From: Polytrichum commune
Taxonomy: Eukaryota > Streptophyta > Polytrichopsida > Polytrichales > Polytrichaceae
NCBI GenBank assembly: GCA_950295325.1
Contig: OX485804.1
Coordinates: 30,938,001 to 31,002,000 of the forward strand
Direction: 5' to 3'
DNA length: 64,000 nt
Position numbers and translations under genes: made by a program. How positions within the stretch are numbered: the stretch's first letter is position 1; every line of letters begins with the position of its first letter. The notes beneath the pieces were generated by a model that had not been told where the DNA came from, made no database searches, and saw only the letters and a program-made list of their open reading frames with translations. This document shows, one piece after another, positions 184 through 57,611 of the stretch.

Positions 184-341
184 TTTTAAAAAATAAGTTT
201 TTTTAAAAAAATCTTTTTGTGACCATATCAACAGAAAAAATCAACAAAATTGTGTTACATCATGTCCAAGTCAACACGTCCTAAGTAACAACCGCGACCA
301 ACGCCTTTCTGTTGATCCGGACGCAGAATTTTCTACTAGTG
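1..341. mobile_element. Right end of a CACTA (En/Spm-type) transposon
   Basis: The stretch ends at 341 with CTACTAGTG. Read from that end on the minus strand it starts CACTAGTAGAAAA, the typical terminus of plant CACTA elements. The other end lies outside the window, so neither the target duplication nor the length can be checked. It contains an (AT)n tract at about 149..179 and no transposase reading frame. The retrotransposon coding region begins directly after it, so the CACTA element probably cut the 5' part of that retrotransposon off, but the order of events is inferred. Confidence 0.6.
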
Positions 342-489
342 TAAAGTACCGAATAAACCAAGAACTGAACCCCTAGCAATCCACATCTTTTGTACTCACC
401 ATCAAAACCATAACATAGGCACAACCAACCAAATAAACACAATCAAAACAATAATTGAAAACTTACAAATAACACAATACCACCTACAA

Positions 490-1233
490 GTGGCCCCACC
501 CACACCGGGCGAAACATCAGTATATAAAAATCACAAATGGAATAAACTACTCTACCCACTTCATACCAACCCCCCACCCACACAAACACCTCCCTTGCCA
601 AACTACGATATTAGTACTACATTAAAATTCCCACCACAATATAGCTACTATACAGACGGATCGTTTATCCCCCCTAAAAAAGCAGAGAATGGACACTGGA
701 AGAAAGAAAAAGCTGGATACGGAATCTACAACCCTACAAAACCAGAAATTCAAATATCAAAAAGATTACCTGGACTCCAAACCTGCTTCAAAGCCGAATT
801 AATGGCCATACACAAAACACTCCGACTAATTACCACCAAATACACTAACGAACCTGCCCACATATTCACCGACTGCCTCAACTGTATATATGTACTCAAC
901 ACCCAAATCAAGCATCCAACTCAACACAACAATCACGCAGATAAAACTATACTTACATCTATGGTCGAAATGTTAAAAAAACGCACACAACCCACTACAA
1001 TATATAAAGTCAAAGCTCATACAAACATTAATGGCAATGAACAAGCAGACCAACTTGCGAAAAATGGAGCCAAAAAGAGATACAGTTTCGCTACCAAATC
1101 ATACGAATTCGCACACACCACACTGTATTTTTTTCAAAAGACACATGGCCTGGACCAAGTAAAAGGCCGGACAAAGGCCCCGTCAGATGCCTTCAAACCT
1201 ACATCACTAAATACGACCGCGAAAACAATCTAA
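490..1233 (+). pseudogene. Retrotransposon RNase H domain (frame 1 part)
   Basis: The reading frame carries an RNase H fold. YYTDGSF at about residues 52-58 supplies the first catalytic Asp, CFKAELMAI at about 99-107 the Glu, FTDCLNC at about 125-131 the second Asp, and VKAHTNINGNEQADQLAKNGA at about 172-193 holds the His and final Asp. All four catalytic acids are present. In non-LTR retrotransposons this domain removes the RNA strand after target-primed reverse transcription. The frame runs off into a spurious tail after about 1134. The homologous continuation is in another frame, starting at the T run 1128..1134, so the stop at 1231 is probably not the original end. The true N-terminus (reverse transcriptase) is absent. 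The first codon given is not an ATG. Confidence 0.8.
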
Positions 1234-2099
1234 AAATAATGGCAGAACAATTTCCCAACATTAGCAAATGGACAATGAACCCAGATATAGATAAGGATAT
1301 ATCCAATAAATTCTGGTCTAACCCGGCAATCACTGACTCACAAAAAACCAGCATACTAAAATTTCGTACTGGACAATACATGGGGAACGCCAGAAAACAA
1401 CTATTCTTCGGCATAGACAGATTCCCATCAATAACATGCCCAATATGCAACTCCTCTGATGCAAACACATGGCTACATGTACTCTTAAAATGCAACCAAC
1501 ACCACATACATGCCCTTAGAACCAAAAGACATAACAGAGCAGTATGGGAACTAAGAAAATTAATCCTATCAACACAAAAATCAAGATGTTACACCCTCAT
1601 GAACGCAGGAACTTTTAACAACAACCCACAAGAAAACACAGTCCCCACATGGCTCCTACCATGTACATGCAGACAACACAGATGTCATTGCAACGCTAGA
1701 TTCAAACCCGATCTCTTATGTATTAAAGGATTCCCACACCAAAATACCCCACCATCACAACCAACGGACAATCTCACGGTACAGTTTATCGAATTCACAT
1801 ACACAAATGACAGATTCCCACAAGACACAATCAATAATAAAACCCAAAAATACCAACCACTAATTAATGACATCACCCAACAAGGCTGGAACGTTGACCC
1901 AATAATTATCATCACGGCTGGAGCTAGAGGAACCACACACGCCCCATCAATGAAACAACTAGAACACTCATTCAAACTATCTGCAACTTCAATCCAAAAT
2001 ACATTCAAGGCAATCAACACTAATGCCATACAATATGCCAGCTCAATCCTTTTACACAAAAGACGCATTGAAAACAACCAAGCAATACCAACAAAATAA
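1135..2099 (+). pseudogene. Retrotransposon C-terminus: CCHC knuckle and PD-(D/E)XK-like endonuclease
   Basis: This frame continues the RNase H protein after a one-base change at a T run; it is open from about 1136, and the first ATG is at 1239. It shows a zinc knuckle CPIC-x9-H-x4-C (about 1437..1494), then KRHN (about 1527), then RFKPDLL (about 1699..1719) and FIEFTY (about 1786..1803) followed by a Lys and Tyr about 20 residues on. Knuckle, (K/R)HN, PD and a later E and K resemble the restriction-like endonuclease tail of R2-type retrotransposons. After it comes a conserved-looking block, GWNVDPIIIITAGARGT. The function as endonuclease is inferred from motif order only. The frame is otherwise intact, so the copy may be fairly young. 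Confidence 0.6.
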
Positions 2100-16090: not shown

Positions 16091-16287
16091 CATGTCCGGT
16101 ATCTTCAAGGCACTAGTGGCTAGCTAGGAACTTGTATAGTGTGTCACTATAGTGTCCATCCTCGAAAGGGGAGAGTAGTATTTGTCCCAATGTCCCCTTG
16201 TCCAGTGGGCATCGGGTCATTGGCATTACGAACGGACACTTTATTCACGTCGGCCCCTTGCTTGAAAGGGGTTGGAGTTTCTATCTA
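16091..16287 (+). repeat. SINE 3' domain, copy 2
   Basis: From CATGTCCGGTATCTTC to GGAGTTTCTATCTA this is nearly identical to the complement of 21955..22151 in the complete SINE. The tRNA-like head is missing; homology starts abruptly at 16091, so the copy looks 5'-truncated, as is usual for LINE-mobilised sequences. The high identity suggests recent activity of the family. Confidence 0.8.
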
Positions 16288-18419: not shown

Positions 18420-19660
18420 GCCGCCTCAACACATTTACAAGATCCATTGAGTTATGGAGTAGCATAGGCATCAACAAGTGAGAACAATTTAAACTTCAAA
18501 TATATTGCAAACATGGCTTGTGACCAACAACCTCACTAGAATTAAGTACCTAGAGTCATAGTCAGTATCGTTAATACTCCTACTAATGTTGCTCCCTCCT
18601 ATGTGTCGCCAATACTCCCAATAAATGTGAGAAATCACATCAAGAATTCAAAACCTTAAACCCTACACATATACCAAGCGAGCAAGAGACCGAAAGTAGG
18701 AAATATGAAGTTTGGGATGGGCACACCTGAGGAATACAACTATGCACTTGCACTTAATGTCCAACCATCAACAATCAACCATCAACATTTGCCAAGTTTG
18801 CAAGATGGTGGGAGTTTGCACACATACGAAAACTTCGAAGAGCTCCCACATACTCTAACTAGGAAGTCACAAAAGCCAAACATAATGCGCACACCCATTG
18901 GGAGCCCTTCCCATACATAACTGGAAAATTCTAACTACCAAGAGACATCCATGAGATGTCATCCCCAACGGTGCTCATCCATACTGTAGGGGCCCTAATC
19001 TATATTATCTTCAATCCCCAACCTACTTAAATCCTATGGTATATTAGTTATAAAACTTCTCTAACATAATCAACTTGTAAAAGCCCTAAGGTAGATGAGG
19101 CTAATGTGGACACCTCCAAGTTTGTGGAATCATCCAGCCAATGGACTCAAGCATTAGAAGCTTGAGCGGGTTAGCAATTGCAAATCAAAACCAAAAATAT
19201 TGAAATATGAGTTGAGGAAGGTGTTAATCTAGTCTCTAGAATCAAAGATTCGTTACTTCCCAATGTGGTGTTACAGGGGGGAAACCCTTTTGTCATTCAA
19301 TGTTGTGTAAGTGGACAACATCGATAGCAAATTCTACATGGGTGGTTTCCTAATGAAATCAAGTTTAATGCCAATATTGGTTGTGTTATGTCACTAAAGT
19401 GGTCACATGTAAGATAAAATGTTGCCAATTGGTTTTTTATTATAGGATACCCACAATACAAGTTGGTCGGCACCTCATAGTCACATGCCGCCTCCTAATT
19501 TGACCAAGTTGCCATCTCCTAATTTACCCATCTAAGGCAAAAAAATCAAGTGTGTCATAGCTTGGTAGATAGAACTCATTATGAAGGATGGTGGGTGTAG
19601 TTTGACTTTTGTGTAGGTGACCAACCCAAATATCATCAAGGTTCCGGCTAAATCACCATG
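18420..19660. other. No gene recognised
   Basis: This is A+T-rich DNA between the degenerate coding-like region and the Tc1 element. One plus-strand open frame (18705..18920) has no recognisable domain. Confidence 0.4.
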
Positions 19661-19662
19661 TA

Positions 19663-21032
19663 CAGTTTTGAACAAAATTGAGTACGTTGTACACAAACTC
19701 AACTTCGACTCCCATTGTCAATTGATTTAAATCAAAAAAACAAAGTGATGAAATGATCAAAGCAAGAGTCCAAGTAATCAATTACATAGATGTGAAACCA
19801 AAAAGTGAAAAGGGTTTAGGGATTTTGGTGCAACTTAAAAGCGGTGGTTTGACTCACAAAGTTGTCGTTACAGTGGACATGAGCCAATATTTTGTAGCGC
19901 ATCCGAGGAAGGATTTAGGGGGCGAGATTGAGAGACAAAGAATATGGCGCCCAAAACTTCTTACAAACTAAGAGAAGAGTCATTGTGTCATTCATGATAC
20001 TGAAGGTCGACTTGGAACTAAATATGTGACAACAAAACAACTTTGATTTGAAACATGTAAATTGTTGTTTAACATCATTGTGAGGCGTGCTTTGAGAGAG
20101 GTTGGATTGGGTGCACAAATGCAACAAAGGAAGTTGTTTATGAATCGTAAACATGTTCTTGTACGCCTAAGGTTTGCTTAAAGGTTGACAATTGGACCAT
20201 TGATGATTGGAAATGCATGATTTTCAGTGATGAGACAAAACTAAATAGGTTTTAACTCACATGGTAGGTCATGGTGTTGGATTGGAGATGGAGAACACAT
20301 TGGACCTCAACATGTCCATCAGACCATGAAGTATGATGTTGGGTCGGTGATGATTTGGAGATGCACGACAAAATTTGGGCAGGGAGCATGGTACAAAATT
20401 GAAGGAATGATGGATAGGAATTTGTACAACTTTATCTTAGAAATTTTCTTGTGGTCCACTATTCAAAATTATAATATGGATCCAAGTAGGTTGGTATTTC
20501 AGCATGATAATGATCCCAAGCACACAAGCAAGATCATGCAAGAATGGTTGGCATACCAACCATTTCAACCCCTTTAGGGGCTTGTACAATCTCCGGATTT
20601 GAATCACATTGAACACTTATGGGCACTTCTCAAACAACGCTTAAACGAATTTAGGACACATCTGAGAGGTATCCAAGAATTGTGGGAGCATGTGTGTTCA
20701 ATGTATCCCAATTTTAATGAACATGATTGCATGGCGCTTTATGAGTGCATACCACAAAGAATTGACGTTGTGTTGAAGAGTAGGGGTAACTGGACCCATT
20801 ACTAAAGATTTTGTAAGCAACTTGAACAAAATTGAGTATTTGTATATATTTTCTCATTTAGCTTTGTAGCATACTTTCTTACTATCAATGTAATGTGAAA
20901 TTTTGCATTCATGTGCCCAAATTTGTGCAGTATCATATCCAATTTTTGAATCTGAAAAAAATCTTTGAATTATTTGTGGTTTTCCGTTGAAGACGATTAT
21001 GTTCAAAGAATACTCAATATTGTTCATGACTG
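19663..21032 (+). mobile_element. Complete Tc1-type transposon (DD34E), decayed
   Basis: The element of 1370 bp is flanked by TA (19661..19662 and 21033..21034). Its ends are inverted repeats: CAGTTTTGAACAAAATTGAG on the left and, on the complement of the right end, CAGTCATGAACAATATTGAG. Weaker similarity continues for about 30 bp inward. It contains a transposase pseudogene in the same orientation. Length, TA target and CAGT ends are typical of Tc1 elements. Both ends and both TA copies survive, so this is a genuine insertion and not a stray protein match. Confidence 0.9.
19753..20805 (+). pseudogene. Tc1-family transposase, DD34E, inactivated
   Basis: The N-terminal part (19753..19971) plausibly covers the helix-turn-helix DNA-binding region, though weakly conserved. 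The catalytic core follows: IFSDET with the first Asp (codon 20229), GSVMIW (about 20341), FQHDNDPKHTS with the second Asp (codon 20506), and SPDLNHIEHLW with the Glu (codon 20611). Exactly 34 residues separate the second Asp and the Glu. Tc1 proteins have this DD34E spacing, while plant mariner-like elements usually have DD39D. The gene has at least four in-frame stops, including a TAG at 20575, and frame changes on either side of the first Asp. It cannot make a full protein. Confidence 0.88.
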
Positions 21033-21034
21033 TA

Positions 21035-21938
21035 TTACTCACCCACCATATTAAGGCAATTGTATTGCCAATGAGGAGCCAACAATAGTGTTTGATTAAG
21101 GAAGCTAACTAGATTAGCCTCATCTACCTTAATTTATTTATACCATGGAGGTCAATATATAACTTGAACTATGTTAGAAGTACATGTTTTATAATTTGCT
21201 TGTTCTAACTTTAAAGTGGACCCTATATTTGTTCTCACATAGTATTCTAAAATATGGGAGTGGACTCCCTGGGAGTCCTTAGTGCTTTCACAATGCATAA
21301 GGCTCCATGGCCAACTTACACATGAATAAATTATCTATCCATGGATGTTAACTTCCACAAAGATATGTAGTGAATATGTTTGCTAAGATTATAAATCTAT
21401 ATTAATATCAATTATATGATTCTTGAAAACTACAAGGGTGCATCTCATTGGTTGAGTCAACGCTCAACATAATTTACTTGAGCCTGGTCCTATGTAACCA
21501 CTTTAGATCACAAACATTGACTTTCCATAAATCATATCTTCATTACACGATGTCAATATTTTACGAATTCGATTGCATATATTAACTTCCTTGTGGATTT
21601 GATTTAACTTTAACACGTTAACTTCTAACTGCACAAACCCTTGAGAGTACCCATAGAGCTTTCGTTGGATACATGTTGCTAAGCATGGTCAAAGTGCTAA
21701 CTATAAATTGAAGTAGAATTAACTAAACCGATAATATGGATCAAAATGGGTGCCAACAATAGATTGAAGTAGTACATACCAAAGAGACACTAAACCAACA
21801 AATAGATAGGAGTTGGTTATAACCAGGCCATTAAAAGATCACACAGACCCTACCACTTGTGTTAATTAGTACACCTACAATGGTGTCTATGTTTGGAGCA
21901 CACAGTGTGATGTCATTGTGAACACATGTCATTTTGAT
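21035..21938. other. No gene recognised
   Basis: No coding region or repeat boundary was identified in these 0.9 kb between the Tc1 element and the SINE. Confidence 0.4.
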
Positions 21939-21950
21939 GTTTATCAACCA

Positions 21951-22323
21951 GATAGATAGATAGAAACTCCAACCCCTTTCAAGCAAGGGGCCGGCGTGAA
22001 TAAAGTGTCCGTTCGTAATGCCAATGACCCGATGCCCACTGGACAAGGGGACATTGGGACAAATACTACTCTCCCCTTTCGAGGATAGACACTATAGTGA
22101 CACACTATACAAGTTCCTAGCTAGCCACTAGTGCCTTGAAGATACCGGACATGATATCCCCCCAAAGGGCTTTGAGGTACCCATACAACAAGGTCCAAGG
22201 ACCCCCCACCATAGTTGGGTGGGCTAAGGTGGTGAGCACCACGCCGGCATGGGGAATAGAACCCACAACCTCCTCATTGGGGGCCATGAGCCCTAACCAC
22301 CAAGCCAAGGCCCGTGGTGCCTA
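21951..22323 (-). repeat. Complete tRNA-derived SINE with 12-bp target duplication
   Basis: The 373-bp element lies between two copies of GTTTATCAACCA (21939..21950 and 22324..22335). On the minus strand it begins with a tRNA-like head: A box TTGGCTTGGTGG (22297..22309) and B box GGGTTCTATTCCCC (22251..22264), the internal RNA polymerase III promoter. The body follows, and it ends with GGAGTTTCTATCTATCTATCT. The target duplication and the short ATCT-repeat tail show integration by target-primed reverse transcription. The 3' half is shared with 2565..2722 and 16091..16287; the partner LINE was not found here. Confidence 0.92.
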
Positions 22324-28376: not shown

Positions 28377-28930
28377 GTTCAACAATGACCCTGAAATGCT
28401 CTGATGGCACATGCATGGGCCTTCTTGGCTTACATAGATATATGTTAATTAATTCCCAACTTCCATTTCCCTGTTGGAAGCCACAGTATTGATGCAACTT
28501 GCTGTTGACAAAGTTTGTCGGTGATCTGAAGTCCGCAGCAACAGACTTGAGAGGACTTAAATTTAAAAGTTGTTGGAGTCAATGTATGTATTAATGCTTC
28601 AAATTAAAACACCACTTCGGCATTGAGAGGATGAGTCATCCTCTTGAAGATTGTTCAACAATGACCCTGAAATGCTCTGATGGCACATGCATGGGCCTTC
28701 TTGGCTTACATAGATATATGTTAATTAATTCCCAACTTCCATTTCCCTGTTGGAAGCCACAGTATTGATGCAACTTGCTGTTGACAAAGTTTGTCGGTGA
28801 TCTGAAGTCCGCAGCAACAGACTTGAGAGGACTTAAATTTAAAAGTTGTTGGAGTCAATGTATGTATTAATGCTTCAAATTAAAACACCACTTCGGCATT
28901 GAGAGGATGAGTCATCCTCTTGAAGATTGT
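28377..28930. repeat. Exact 276-bp tandem duplication
   Basis: The unit starting GTTCAACAATGACCC at 28377 repeats from 28653 without a difference that I can find, ending at about 28930. On the minus strand parts of the unit read as open frame (for example RSPTNFVNSKLHQYCGFQQG), but no gene is recognised. Complete identity indicates a very recent duplication or an assembly error. Confidence 0.9.
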
Positions 28931-29679: not shown

Positions 29680-32600
29680 CTAAGATGGTAATAAGCCTTG
29701 GTTTGGTGAATCCACAGTTGCTTCACCCATGGTAGACAACTTCTGGAAGGCAATGCTGGCAGCTTCTAGAAACCAGTCATCACTTGGTAACACTCTGCCA
29801 TCCAAAGAATGGTATACATACATGAGAAATTTCAATTTTGTAGAGAAGGCTCAATTTTGAAAGCACATAATGTGACTGAATGGAGGCTCTGTATTCTGTT
29901 GATGTTGAACGTATCTCTACGTTGATCAGACAAGTACAATTTGAACACAAACACATGAATTCAAGCACATGTCCAGTTCTTGGTATGACTCCTAAATTGT
30001 GATGTTAGTGTAGGCAATCTCATTGTAACAAATGTATTTTTGGTGTTCCTTCTTAAGTACAATCCTGGCCATAAACCACTCAAATATAGGTGTCTGATTA
30101 AGAGCCACCACATAATCCGAAAAAAAGAATATAAAGGCTAAGAAATCTGACCTCTCAGGATCAGCACCAGTTGCAGCAAAGGCATTCACTGCTCGAGAAG
30201 TTAGCCCTTGTATCAAAGAACTTAAAATTGGTGAATTGCAATTGTTGCTGGAAGCCATTTGGGCCACAAATTGCATGTCCAGTACAAACTAACAAGCACA
30301 TGATGGTGCAATTCAGCTTCACTCCAGAGATAATTCAAATTTCAGATTCAAAATGCACAAGTGAAAAGCCAAAAAGAATAAGCATGTTAAATTGGCGCAT
30401 CTGAGAATATCTGTTATTATTTTGAGTAATCTGGGGTCACTTGTGCAAAGGAATCATTGTACTATACTTGTTGTAGACCAATAGGACCAAGCAGTTGAGG
30501 GCCATCTTCAATTCCACGCCAAAACTCCGTCTCGTCCAACCAAGAAGCAAAGACTTCCAGGAGGTGTGACATGAATGGAATCACAACCGTTTCCTTGCTA
30601 ATTGATGCCTCCTCTCCAGCCCGTTGTATGCGAATTAACCTATGGAACAATGCCTATCCGACCATGAAGTGAAAACCTTGTCAGGTGTCTCCAGTCTCAT
30701 AACTCAAAAACACTACCTAATGTCAATCTTGTAAGGTACTCTGATCAATTGGAACTCTACATTTGAGTGGTATATGGCAAGGGCTTGTGGTTAAGAGTGG
30801 ACACCAAAACGACATGTGTTACAATGAGATTGGATGATGTGCTCAGAATATAGACACCGTTTTAAGGTCAATAGTGGACACAATTGGGAGGGCCTTTGTG
30901 GTATTCAAAGAGAAAGAGAATCTCCACTTTCACTTCTTATAACTTTTGTACTCATATTCTGATTCTAAAACTTCAAATGATAATTCATTTGATTTGTACT
31001 TGCTAACAAGATGAGGCAAGTTTCAATCTGACCCAACCGCAAAAATTTATGCAGAGTTGGAATTGCCCGCAATTGGGTCACAATACATTGTATTCTTTAC
31101 TTAGCATTTCCTTTGGATATTCACACTTCACATTGAAGTTTTGGAATATAAGAACTACCCCTTATTTTTGAAGTTTTAACAAAGAGGAAATTAGCAATGA
31201 ATGGTGTAGTCAAACCTGGAAGATGTCTGAAGGCATTCCATTTTTGTTTGACCCCGGGTTCTGACTTCCTTCAGAATCGAGATCAATGTATGTGGCGGGG
31301 GTGGGGACAAATTTCACCTTATAGGCAGGATCGAGCAAGTATTGGAGACTATGTTTGCAAATAGAGTATTGCAAACGCTTGACTGCGGTTCGTAGCTTTT
31401 GTTGCCATTCTGACTTGTTAGGGTTGTAGTTCAGTGTGTTGGAGGCCACGCTGAAGCTAGATTGTCGGATGAGTCCCATACTCCAGGACTCTTTGTCCTT
31501 TGGTAACACCTTTGGAGCCAACGGGGGTAATAATTCATAGGCAAGTGTCGTTGCGTTATTTATAAGAGCAAGTTGCCGAGTCTCTGTATTTGTAGTGTAT
31601 TCCTACGTCCAAGTGTTGAAAAACTGTCATCTACGTGCTTCATAAGTGATGTTTCTCTTAGCAAATGATATACTTAAATATGATTGATTTGATGGGCCAC
31701 ATTCCCAAGAATAATGGGCCATTCCTCACCGACTTGAACATTGAATACGCAGGGCATTTCACACCATTTCAAACCATATTCATCCCTATACTCGAGAGGG
31801 CTCCCCACTATCTTAACAATATTATGGTATCCTAAAACATAGTAGACATTAGGTTAATTTACTACATTTATTTTAGGTTGCAAGCAATATTTCTGGAATG
31901 TAAGTCACACTCACTTTTCCATCTCTGGCAAGACCTGGCACTGCCTTGATCAGCATGGCGATGTAGTCGTTGAACAACAAACATAGGCCTTCCAGTACAA
32001 ACCCAGCTAGATGTAGGCTTATGAGTGGATATACCCCTTCCATCAAGTCCTACAAAAATGGCTATGGTAAATGTCAGAAACCATAATCCTACCATAGAAG
32101 GCTCTCTATTCCTACTAGAATAATGATTTTCTATTCAAATCATGCCACATGTCAATCTCACATTTGTTGAGGTCCACTTGAATCCCCTCTGGAAACTACA
32201 TTCCAGCACTAGTTAAGATAGATAGAGCGCCCTCTTCAGCACCTTATTTACTGGTACCCATGCATTCACCTATACACTGATCCAACATTGGCATAAACCC
32301 ACCCTTGGTACTGTAAAATAACTACTGAAACCACGAGTGAATATTGTGCAGGTGGAAACCAGGAAGGCACCTGCACCATGGAGATGAACTGATGGGCGCT
32401 GCTGGAGAGCTTGACAGTCCGTGAACTTTGGCTTCGGTGGATTAGTGTTCGTGAGGAAGTAGAGAGCGAGCGCAATCGTAGGGACGGTGTGGACTGATAG
32501 AATGTGAGCACCCAGTCATCGGCCGATGCCATGGCCGCCACACTTTCCTCGATCCGCTTCATGTTCGCCTCCATCGCCTGTTCCACACTGGGACGGAACT

Positions 32601-35600
32601 TCTTGGCCAACATGGGACACAGAATCAAGCCATGGGATTCCAGGAGCGAGCAATACCCAAAGGCAATCTCGACGCACTCAGCGGCCCCCCGCAATGCGCC
32701 TGTTGCGGCCGCAGAAGACAGCACGTGCTGCTTGATCAGGCGGGCATAGAACTCCGTGACTTTGCAAGCCCACACCACAATCTCGGATGCGAACTCAGGC
32801 ACGTCCCCAAAAACCATCCTTGAATCTCTTGCCGCCTGCAATTATGTACAGTATGCAGGTGTTACTCGGTTACTTTACTTAATCGGACACCTAGGTGAGG
32901 ATCAAAGAACAGACACCATAAAGACACATGATGTTTGATAGATTTTGGCCTACGTCTTCAAATTTTATTACCTACTCCACATTCGATAGTGAACACTCTT
33001 GGGAGGACCTGCATATTCAATTAAGGAATCAACAAACATGCACTTCCGATCACCATGACTATATCAGAGGAGGTTCGATTTGCAATCCAATTTTGTTAAT
33101 GCTTCATTGTAGATTTTGCTCATGCAACACAAGTTTTGTTGTGCAAATCTAACTGGTAGAAGTTGGAGAACATAAAAGAACAAATTGAAAAACACCCACA
33201 CACCTTATGTAGGAAACAATTTAAATAAGAGAGACTTAAGGTGGATTTAACATTTGGGTCCAAGACCAAAGAAACTCCCAAGTCAAGCAATGTAAGGGTT
33301 GAGAGTAATAATTTGAACTCAAGGCGTTTACACAAGGGTCCGAATCCAACGTTGAGATCAAGAAGTGCTAATGTGGCACTACTTTTCTGCCAACGCTTGT
33401 CCGTCCCAACTTAAGAAAATACTCCACCCAATTTGAATAACCAAATTTCAAGCTTGGACCCAATCTTGAGTCCAAATATAAGGTCCATTAAGGGGTGTTT
33501 TAATCCCCAAGTTTCTTGAACCCAAACCCTAATGTAAGCACATCCTTGGTAATCAAGGGACAAATTTTGCTTCCCTCCTCCAATTCTGAAACTTGAATTG
33601 AGGATCTCCGTGACTTGTAATTGCTAACCACATGAGACAATTCACAGTCCGACCCAACCACTAAAATTGACTGTGGAGTTGGAATTGCCCATAATATGGG
33701 CACAAACCTTATCCACATACCAACAAGAATAACAAGCTCGGAAGTCTATCAGTAGATGCTTGTTCACAGCCTTCTGAGGTTATGAAATTTGAACAGTCTG
33801 AAGATCGCTACAATTTGGAGACCAAAAGTATTTACCCTACACCCGTGTCAGTTTTGTAAATAAATAAGCAACATTTGAAGCATGTGAGTCCAAATGTTGA
33901 TGAATTCGGACACCAATGTCCAATAAAGAAATACATACATACACTTTTAACTCGTCTTTGTGGTGTATGGCTCCATATTTAGTCCAGAACATTGAAACAT
34001 GCTGTCTGACTTCAAGCCCCAAATTTCAATATTTCGACTCATATGTGTTGACCTTAACTGACCTAAAAAGGGTAGAGTTAGCTTGCCTGCTTGATAGTGG
34101 AGCATGCCATTTGTGACAACGCAGCGGTGAGTGCCCTGTGTTAGGATGTTCTGATGAGGTGAAGCTCGCAGCTGTTGTGCTTGAAGCTTGAATTAAAGAT
34201 TGACATTTTGCACCATAACATTGTTAAGCTCCTTATAGGGCCACCCCTGGATGAGGAATCAAAAGCCAATGCAGCGAGAAAAATGGGCCACTTCCATACG
34301 CATTAAGCCTAGATCTAGCTTACCCAACTTTTGCTTCGGCAAAAGAGTTCGAATACCCAGGTCCTAACAATGTTGAGACTTACTGAAGTCCAATCCCATA
34401 TCAAATTGTTTCAACACAGAAGTGTTGACCTTAACTGACCTTAAAGTTGTACTGTACGCTTGCCTGCTAGATTGTGGAGAACGCCATTGGCAACAATGTG
34501 GGCAGTGAGTGCCCTGTGGTAGGACATTCCGATGGGATGAAGCCCGCGCAGCTGTTGTGCTTAAAGCTAGAATTCGATAATGATATTTTGCACCATAACA
34601 TTGTAAAGCTCCTTATAGGGCCACCCCTACGTAAGGAGTTGAAAGCCATTGCAGCAAGAAAAATGGACCAATTCCATAAGCATACAGCGTGCATGTGGGT
34701 TACCTGCACTAACAATGTTAAGACTCACTGAAGTCCAGTGCCAAGTCAAATCATTTCGACACAGAATTGTTGAGCTTAACTGACCTCAAAAGGATTTATA
34801 CGGTTAGCTTGCCTGCAAGATTGTGGAGAATGCCATTTGCGACAAGGCAGCTGTGAGTGCTCCCCGGTAGGAAGTTCCAATGGGGTGAAGCCCACGGCTG
34901 TTGCGCTTGAAGCGAGCGTAATGGGCATAGAGCAACATTGTGTGCGCATGGGCACCTTCTCCCAACTGATCCATGTAGGCCACGATGGCGCGGAGCTCGA
35001 CGCCACGCACAGACGGCTGTTTGCTCATGTAGGCCAAGTAGTCAAGAAGCGCATTCTTGCGTTTCTTCAACGCGGCTTGCAAGAACACACTCGTGACAGG
35101 CGTGAGGAGGCTCAGGTTGCCATCCTTGCTCGTGCACGCGTCGCAATCGCGCACCAGATTCTCGCCTTCTTCCAACGTCGCAAGTGCCAACTCGATTTTA
35201 CGCTCCGCCAGAAGGCTGTCAAAGATGTTCGGAAGGGAAAATGCGATGTATTCGGGGTTGGAACGAGATGATGATGATGATGATGGATTAATGATCTCTT
35301 TGGAGTACATATTGGTCTTTGCGGCGGAGTTTGGGAGAGTGCGTATTGGGTCAATCCACTCGGCGAGGTTTCGGACAACACCTGTTCGAGTGCGCAATAG
35401 TGAGCGCAATTTGATTATGCCCTGCTCCATGCTCGCCACTTCTCGAGACATCCTGTAAAAAAGACGTATGAAGTTTAGGGTCTTCCAAAATCAATAGTCG
35501 TAGTTCACCTGTATCATCCACATTAGGTTTATCTAAAAGCATTAGAAATTACCAGCACCATGACCTCTCATAACTGCCAAAAGAGTCAAGCCGGTTTGAC

Positions 35601-57025: not shown

Positions 57026-57360
57026 AAATGTGATTAACCAACTATGGATGTTGTACATGATAAGTATTCACTCTATCTATTACAGAAGCATTAGTGGCAA
57101 CTACAGACCTCTTGCACAATGATATATACAATGAGGATTTTCCTAGGAAAATTAATATGTCGAAGATTTCTCTTAAGCAGTTAAAATAATAATAATAATA
57201 ATAAATGTGATTAACCAACTATGGATGTTGTACATGATAAGTATTCACTCTATCTATTACAAAAGCATTAGTGGCAACTACAGACCTCTTGCACAATGAT
57301 ATATACAATGAGGATTTTCCTAGGAAAATTAATATGTCGAAGATTTCTCTTAAGCAGTTA
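57026..57360. repeat. 177-bp tandem duplication
   Basis: The unit from AAATGTGATTAACCAACTAT at 57026 repeats from 57203 with one visible difference (CAG to CAA). An (AAT)n run ends the first unit, and A-rich sequence plus a (CA)n run (57385..57408) follows the second. Confidence 0.9.
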
Positions 57361-57611
57361 AAAAAAAATTAAAAAAAAATTAAAACACACACACACACAC
57401 ACACACAAACTCGATGATTTCATATTTTAGAGGTGGGAATGGGGAGGTGCCAACCAAAAAGAAGGATATGGAAAACATATGCTTTGAATTCAATAGAACA
57501 CTTCACAAAGGCCAACAATCTTCAGAAGAAGCCATAGCATAGGTTCTAAATGGCTTACCCATCTCATTTACAAATGCAATGAATGAGGATTGATAAAACC
57601 TTTTACCATTC

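Follow-up and report, generated by a model that had tools for sequence, protein, structure and literature searches.

The window analyzed here, a stretch of 64,000 nucleotides from a contig of the moss Polytrichum commune (OX485804.1), carries at positions 19663-21032 an internally deleted member of a DD34E Tc1-type transposon family, inserted into a high-copy dispersed repeat. A previous, sequence-only reading had proposed a DD34E Tc1-type element at this position, with inverted ends, TA flanks and 34 positions between the second catalytic Asp (D2) and the catalytic Glu (E), and each of these attributes was recovered in the present analysis, the ends being CAGT...ACTG. The features of the element and of its host repeat are listed below.

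19162..19662, + strand: left flank, part of the high-copy dispersed repeat hosting the insertion (41 genome matches)
19661..19662: left TA target-site duplication, from the sequence; TA in 5 of 8 unoccupied paralogs
19663..21032, + strand: whole element, 1,370 bp, a DD34E Tc1-type family copy with an internal deletion
19663..19684, + strand: left terminal inverted repeat, starting CAGT, from end pairing and family comparison
19821..19826, + strand: junction left by an internal deletion of 218 columns, private to this copy, that removed 5' untranslated sequence, the start codon and the first few codons
19826..20805, + strand: transposase pseudogene without a start, with stops and frame changes
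20047..20178, + strand: HTH_Tnp_Tc3_2 helix-turn-helix piece (Pfam PF01498, E=3e-4, under the gathering score)
20178..20249, + strand: frame-shifted segment with FSDET; the first catalytic Asp (D1) is 20229-20231
20506..20508, + strand: catalytic D2 (FQHDNDPKHTS)
20611..20613, + strand: catalytic E (SPDLNHIEHLW), 34 positions after D2 (DDE_3, E=8e-4, under the gathering score)
20823..20840, + strand: second, internal occurrence of the left-end sequence, oriented towards the right end
21011..21032, - strand: right terminal inverted repeat, ending ACTG, from end pairing
21033..21034: right TA target-site duplication, from the sequence and the empty-site alignment
21035..21145, + strand: right remainder of the host repeat, whose similarity ends roughly there, as judged by identity in 30-column bins

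The end sequence of the family reads CAGTTACGAACAAAA(C/T)TGAGTAC. In the window copy, pairing of the inverted ends extends more weakly beyond the 22-bp core, out to about 50 bp, and the alignment of the first against the last 50 nt of the element scores 42, compared with a maximum of 28 among 2,000 random window pairs with the same spacing. The left-end motif that recurs internally (at most 4 mismatches of 17) is found in the same region in 37 of 40 aligned copies and is therefore a feature of the family, not a nested insert; the presence of a second small element at 20823-20840 was rejected on these grounds.

The transposase motifs FSDET, HDNDPKHTS and PDLNHIEHLW are legible in the window copy, as previously noted, and the 34 positions separating D2 from E include one stop codon, whereas the residue located 39 positions after D2 is a Leu. 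Two of the four open pieces of the window copy match Pfam families, HTH_Tnp_Tc3_2 and DDE_3, in both cases below the gathering score, and no Pfam family was matched by the piece bearing D2 or by the most 5' piece. The element had also been described as complete, a description that does not hold: the window copy lacks 218 columns of the family alignment (columns 160-378), among them the start codon of the family, contains four in-frame stops and has D1 in a different frame from D2 and E.

The family was characterized by aligning the window copy with the 39 other copies obtained in the first genome search. The resulting alignment spans approximately 1,588 columns, and its column majority contains a single 338-codon frame at 344-1360. 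The deletion seen in the window copy is common to none of the 39 other aligned copies, two of which (L042 and L044) present different gaps overlapping the deleted columns; an amplified, non-autonomous deletion derivative (MITE-like) was rejected on this basis. All 40 copies carry at least one in-frame stop on the family frame, with 1 to 11 stops per copy. Deviation from the column majority is essentially the same at the three codon positions (10.7, 10.6 and 10.3%), denoting decay without codon-position bias, and reaches 14.4% outside the frame, a difference from the roughly 10.5% within it that may reflect alignment error or something else. The readability of the catalytic residues could be taken as the signature of a domesticated transposase gene or some other functional locus, but a deleted start codon, four in-frame stops, a frameshift and a family-wide deviation that is equal at all codon positions make such a role scarcely credible. 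The window copy is an ordinary fossil, dead and without any present activity.

The ends of the family have also decayed, with an exact CAGT left end in 11 of the 40 copies and an exact ACTG right end in 10, the remaining ends being variant or damaged. TA is found on both sides of 24 copies, and decay, truncation or misalignment account for the other 16. In a tree of the family, 94.8% of the total length lies in the tips, and this star-like shape makes the copies look like the product of one burst. Copies diverge from the column majority by 11.9% on average (10.6% for the window copy), a value that drops to 9.65% (8.3% for the window copy) when CG and CHG sites are left out. C-to-T changes affect 26% of CG positions (1002/3859) and 26% of CHG positions (653/2534), compared with 9.2% of CHH positions (1805/19707). 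CHG methylation is typical of plants, and the observed pattern is the one expected from plant DNA methylation. At 1% per million years, the rate given in the accessible part of PMC4054914, the family would be roughly 8-10 million years old, a figure to be read as a yardstick only.

The residence of the element in the moss genome was assessed by searching the assembly (G000; 407.8 Mb in 64 contigs, seven of them large, at 42-78 Mb) for further copies, as the sequence-only reading had suggested. At least 58 places match the element, the window copy included, and they are spread over all seven large contigs; this count combines a first search, in which the best 40 of 173 candidates were scored, with a search using the right end, in which the best 40 of 97 candidates were scored and 18 were new. 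The left-flank repeat was searched in the same way, yielding 41 matches with the best 40 of 887 candidates scored. Eight of the 40 scored host-repeat copies were fetched, and all eight cross the insertion point without the element, presenting a single TA in five cases and TC, TG or CA in the other three; just to the right of this point, L071 has six additional bases and L074 lacks four. Identity between the window and these unoccupied repeats is 83-85% on the left side and only 41-49% over 500 bp on the right, because the similarity of the repeat stops there after about 110 bp. The window element is an ordinary TA insertion into a resident repeat. The alternative that the element reached the assembly as fungal (or arthropod) contamination draws on accessible reports in which related elements of moss have their nearest relatives in fungi (PMC7466625, PMC4905642), but it is at odds with the presence of copies on all seven large contigs, with the location of the element inside a repeat of the genome itself that exists unoccupied elsewhere, and with a CHG decay that fits plant methylation, and we consider it extremely improbable. 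The earlier view of a bounded, decayed insertion in plant DNA is thus upheld by the contig distribution and the eight empty sites.

Several other features were observed in the window and in the genome. At 340-2096 (+ strand), an RNase H domain (E=9.6e-17) is overlapped on its right by a 352-codon frame without a Pfam match, perhaps the remnant of a LINE-like retroelement. Recent tandem duplications lie at 28377-28930 (276-bp unit, 2.0 copies, 100% matches) and at 57026-57363 (177-bp unit, 1.9 copies, 99% matches), and a 197-bp dispersed repeat occurs as inverted copies at 16091-16287 and 21957-22153, 99% identical, with a third, approximately 80% alike, at 2568-2718. The stretch 32266-35490 (- strand) may contain exons of a plant gene resembling exocyst EXO84, with Exo84_C matching 32269-32841 below the cut-off (E=0.018); the segment 34807-35490, which we take to be exocyst EXO84-like, matched no Pfam family. 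Elsewhere in the genome, three LEAFY-type genes (6 matches) are of two kinds. One kind comprises L077 and L078, which have D and C residues as in PDB 4bhk, presumably the Physcomitrella LEAFY, where 2vy1, presumably the Arabidopsis LEAFY, has H and R; the L077 piece scores 213 bits against 4bhk and 171 against 2vy1. The other, L076, has H and R as in 2vy1, yet is closest to 4bhk (199 versus 181 bits). D and C being the moss-type residues, these genes point to a moss as the most likely host, with L076 as an exception in its residues, and a chromosome number of seven would agree with Polytrichaceae.

In all 15 window and genome rows examined, which were picked for a readable D2 motif, E is located exactly 34 positions after D2, and none has a D at 39. 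A piece of the window family (L014) scores 131.5 bits against the transposase of Sleeping Beauty, an animal (fish) element, and at most 22.9 bits against that of Mos1, and a relative of the family (L054) matches both HTH_Tnp_Tc3_2 (1.9e-12) and DDE_3 (6.1e-7) above the cut-off. In a tree built without mariner, pogo or fungal rows, the window family groups with Sleeping Beauty, apart from two further groups of the same genome (D and E, below). A misread mariner (DD34D) or plant DD39D mariner-like element would share the superfamily and the TA target, but the position of E in the 15 selected rows, together with a Sleeping Beauty score far above that for Mos1, leaves almost no room for this interpretation; identity with the DD39D plant mariners (PlantMar) in particular was rejected, given E at 34 and L at 39 in the window copy. 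The mariner Transposase_1 profile gave no match in the moss genome, a weak test since it equally gave none in 14 control genomes. Relatives outside the moss were sought in viral contigs, where one scan returned no pattern match and another returned 69, none of them confirmed, and in prokaryotic genome contigs, where none of 82 pattern matches was confirmed.

Taken as a whole, the locus is very probably the product of a Tc1-type DD34E transposon that spread in the moss genome, apparently in one burst, and of which the window holds a copy inserted at TA, deleted, decayed and dead. Judging from the family to which it belongs, the transposase would have attached to the inverted ends, cut the element out and integrated it at TA sites. 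The copy seen here would have landed in a TA within the high-copy repeat (19661/21034 in the window), subsequently losing 218 bp and decaying, as the substitutions of the family suggest, by mutation that includes methylation-driven C-to-T change.

The diversity of related elements in the same genome was explored with the HTH_Tnp_Tc3_2 profile, which produced at least 150 matches (150 of 337 candidates scored), this domain alone being no proof of DD34E. A few of the matches fall below the family cut-off, and two on the small contig C59 resemble repeats of two on C1. Twenty loci were fetched (L048-L067, on contigs C1-C7). Their transposase stretches run for 232 to 405 codons without a stop, and the loci define at least five groups: A, to which the window family and L054, a diverged relative, belong, and B, C, D and E. 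The rows of the tree were chosen for readable frames (L048, L049, L050, two from L052, L053, L054, L056, L058, L062, L063, L064 and L066), and L051, L055, L057, L059, L060, L061, L065 and L067 were assigned to groups by eye from their translations. A branch with 100/100 support splits A, B, C and Sleeping Beauty from D and E. Sleeping Beauty (PDB 5cr4), which is likewise a DD34E element and is 35-40% identical to groups A-C, falls outside the A/B/C group, but this split is weak (82/85) and the tree is limited by long branches. Among individual loci, L054 is open over 359 codons (338 from the first ATG) and is 69% identical to the L014 piece; L053 has lost D1. The group D locus L048 has 218-bp ends that start with CAGT and differ at 4 positions, a near-identity that suggests recent activity. 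Long ends without clear CAGT termini are also present in L049 (303 bp, 11 mismatches) and L053 (176 bp, 7 mismatches), and 24-nt ends pairing at 22 of 24 positions were identified in L056 and L061 (group B) and in L064 and L067 (group C); a search for ends in L050, L058, L063 and L066 produced none that was convincing. That a single moss genome harbours five or more DD34E groups is somewhat new.

DD34E elements in plants had been presented as an anomaly against a DD39D norm, a view that the accessible portions of the literature show to be outdated, since such elements were reported from a moss and nine angiosperms in 2014 (PMC4054914). In the angiosperms, a complete element was described in rice, and mostly fragments in the eight other species. 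The DD39D norm itself applies to flowering plants: in the available text of Dupeyron et al. (2020), DD39D PlantMar elements, which share with the window family the superfamily and the TA target and differ from it in having D as the third residue, at 39, are recorded in flowering plants and in some oomycetes but in no bryophyte (PMC7325037). Two elements are documented in Physcomitrella in the portions of Liu and Yang (2014) at hand: PpTc1, of 1,584 bp, with a 338-aa transposase and 33-bp ends, whose copies are approximately 2% diverged and include nine with intact frames, and PpTc2, of 1,709 bp, also with 338 aa, whose transposase is 26% identical to that of PpTc1 (PMC4054914). According to the accessible text of Castanera et al. 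(2016), Mariner2_PPa lies near a Pleurotus element, with the moss sequence inside a basidiomycete clade (PMC4905642), and in that of Vendrell-Mir et al. (2020) both Physcomitrella elements are closest to fungal ones, transfer from fungi is proposed, and similar elements are reported absent from Marchantia, Arabidopsis and rice (PMC7466625). DD34E elements in a moss have thus been in print since 2014, with a fungal link since 2016 and 2020, and the phenomenon was already known for one moss; in the titles and abstract beginnings of open-licence papers, no DD34E element was found for any moss besides Physcomitrella.

Like the window family, PpTc1 is a multi-copy DD34E element of a moss genome, with CAGT ends, a TA target, a 338-residue frame and a length of about 1.58 kb, as far as its partially available description goes (PMC4054914). 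The window family is likely its counterpart, a match drawn from length, frame and CAGT ends only. The two differ in condition, PpTc1 with its approximately 2% divergence and nine intact frames contrasting with a window family that lies approximately 12% from its majority and has no stop-free copy among 40. Vertical inheritance among mosses, with PpTc1 descending from the same old lineage and no separate transfer into the present one, would explain the agreement between 1,588 columns and 1,584 bp, the common 338-codon frame and the CAGT ends (PMC4054914), and the 69% identity of L054 to the L014 piece attests to older diversity within the genome. It sits less easily with the star-like burst, with published trees that, in their accessible form, put the Physcomitrella elements with fungal ones, and with the reported lack of similar elements in Marchantia, Arabidopsis and rice (PMC7466625, PMC4905642), and we regard such descent as a serious possibility, if on balance somewhat doubtful.

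PpTc2 and Mariner2_PPa likewise belong to the moss Tc1-mariner elements for which, in the same partly available sources, a close relationship to fungal elements is reported (PMC4054914, PMC7466625, PMC4905642), and they may match other groups of the present genome. We tentatively propose, with belief and doubt nearly in balance, that mosses in general, beyond Physcomitrella, are long-term hosts of several fungal-type DD34E Tc1 lineages, of which this genome would hold at least five, ranging from the window family, a dead burst, to elements that look younger, having long open frames and ends that are nearly identical. Such a history, if true, would imply either that these lineages came in from fungi more than once or that mosses have maintained a deep reservoir of them. 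With the present results, a second moss genome joins the one for which DD34E elements had been published, and its groups outnumber the two or three described for Physcomitrella in the accessible accounts. Whether fungus-to-moss transfer was single, repeated or followed by vertical descent thereby becomes testable.
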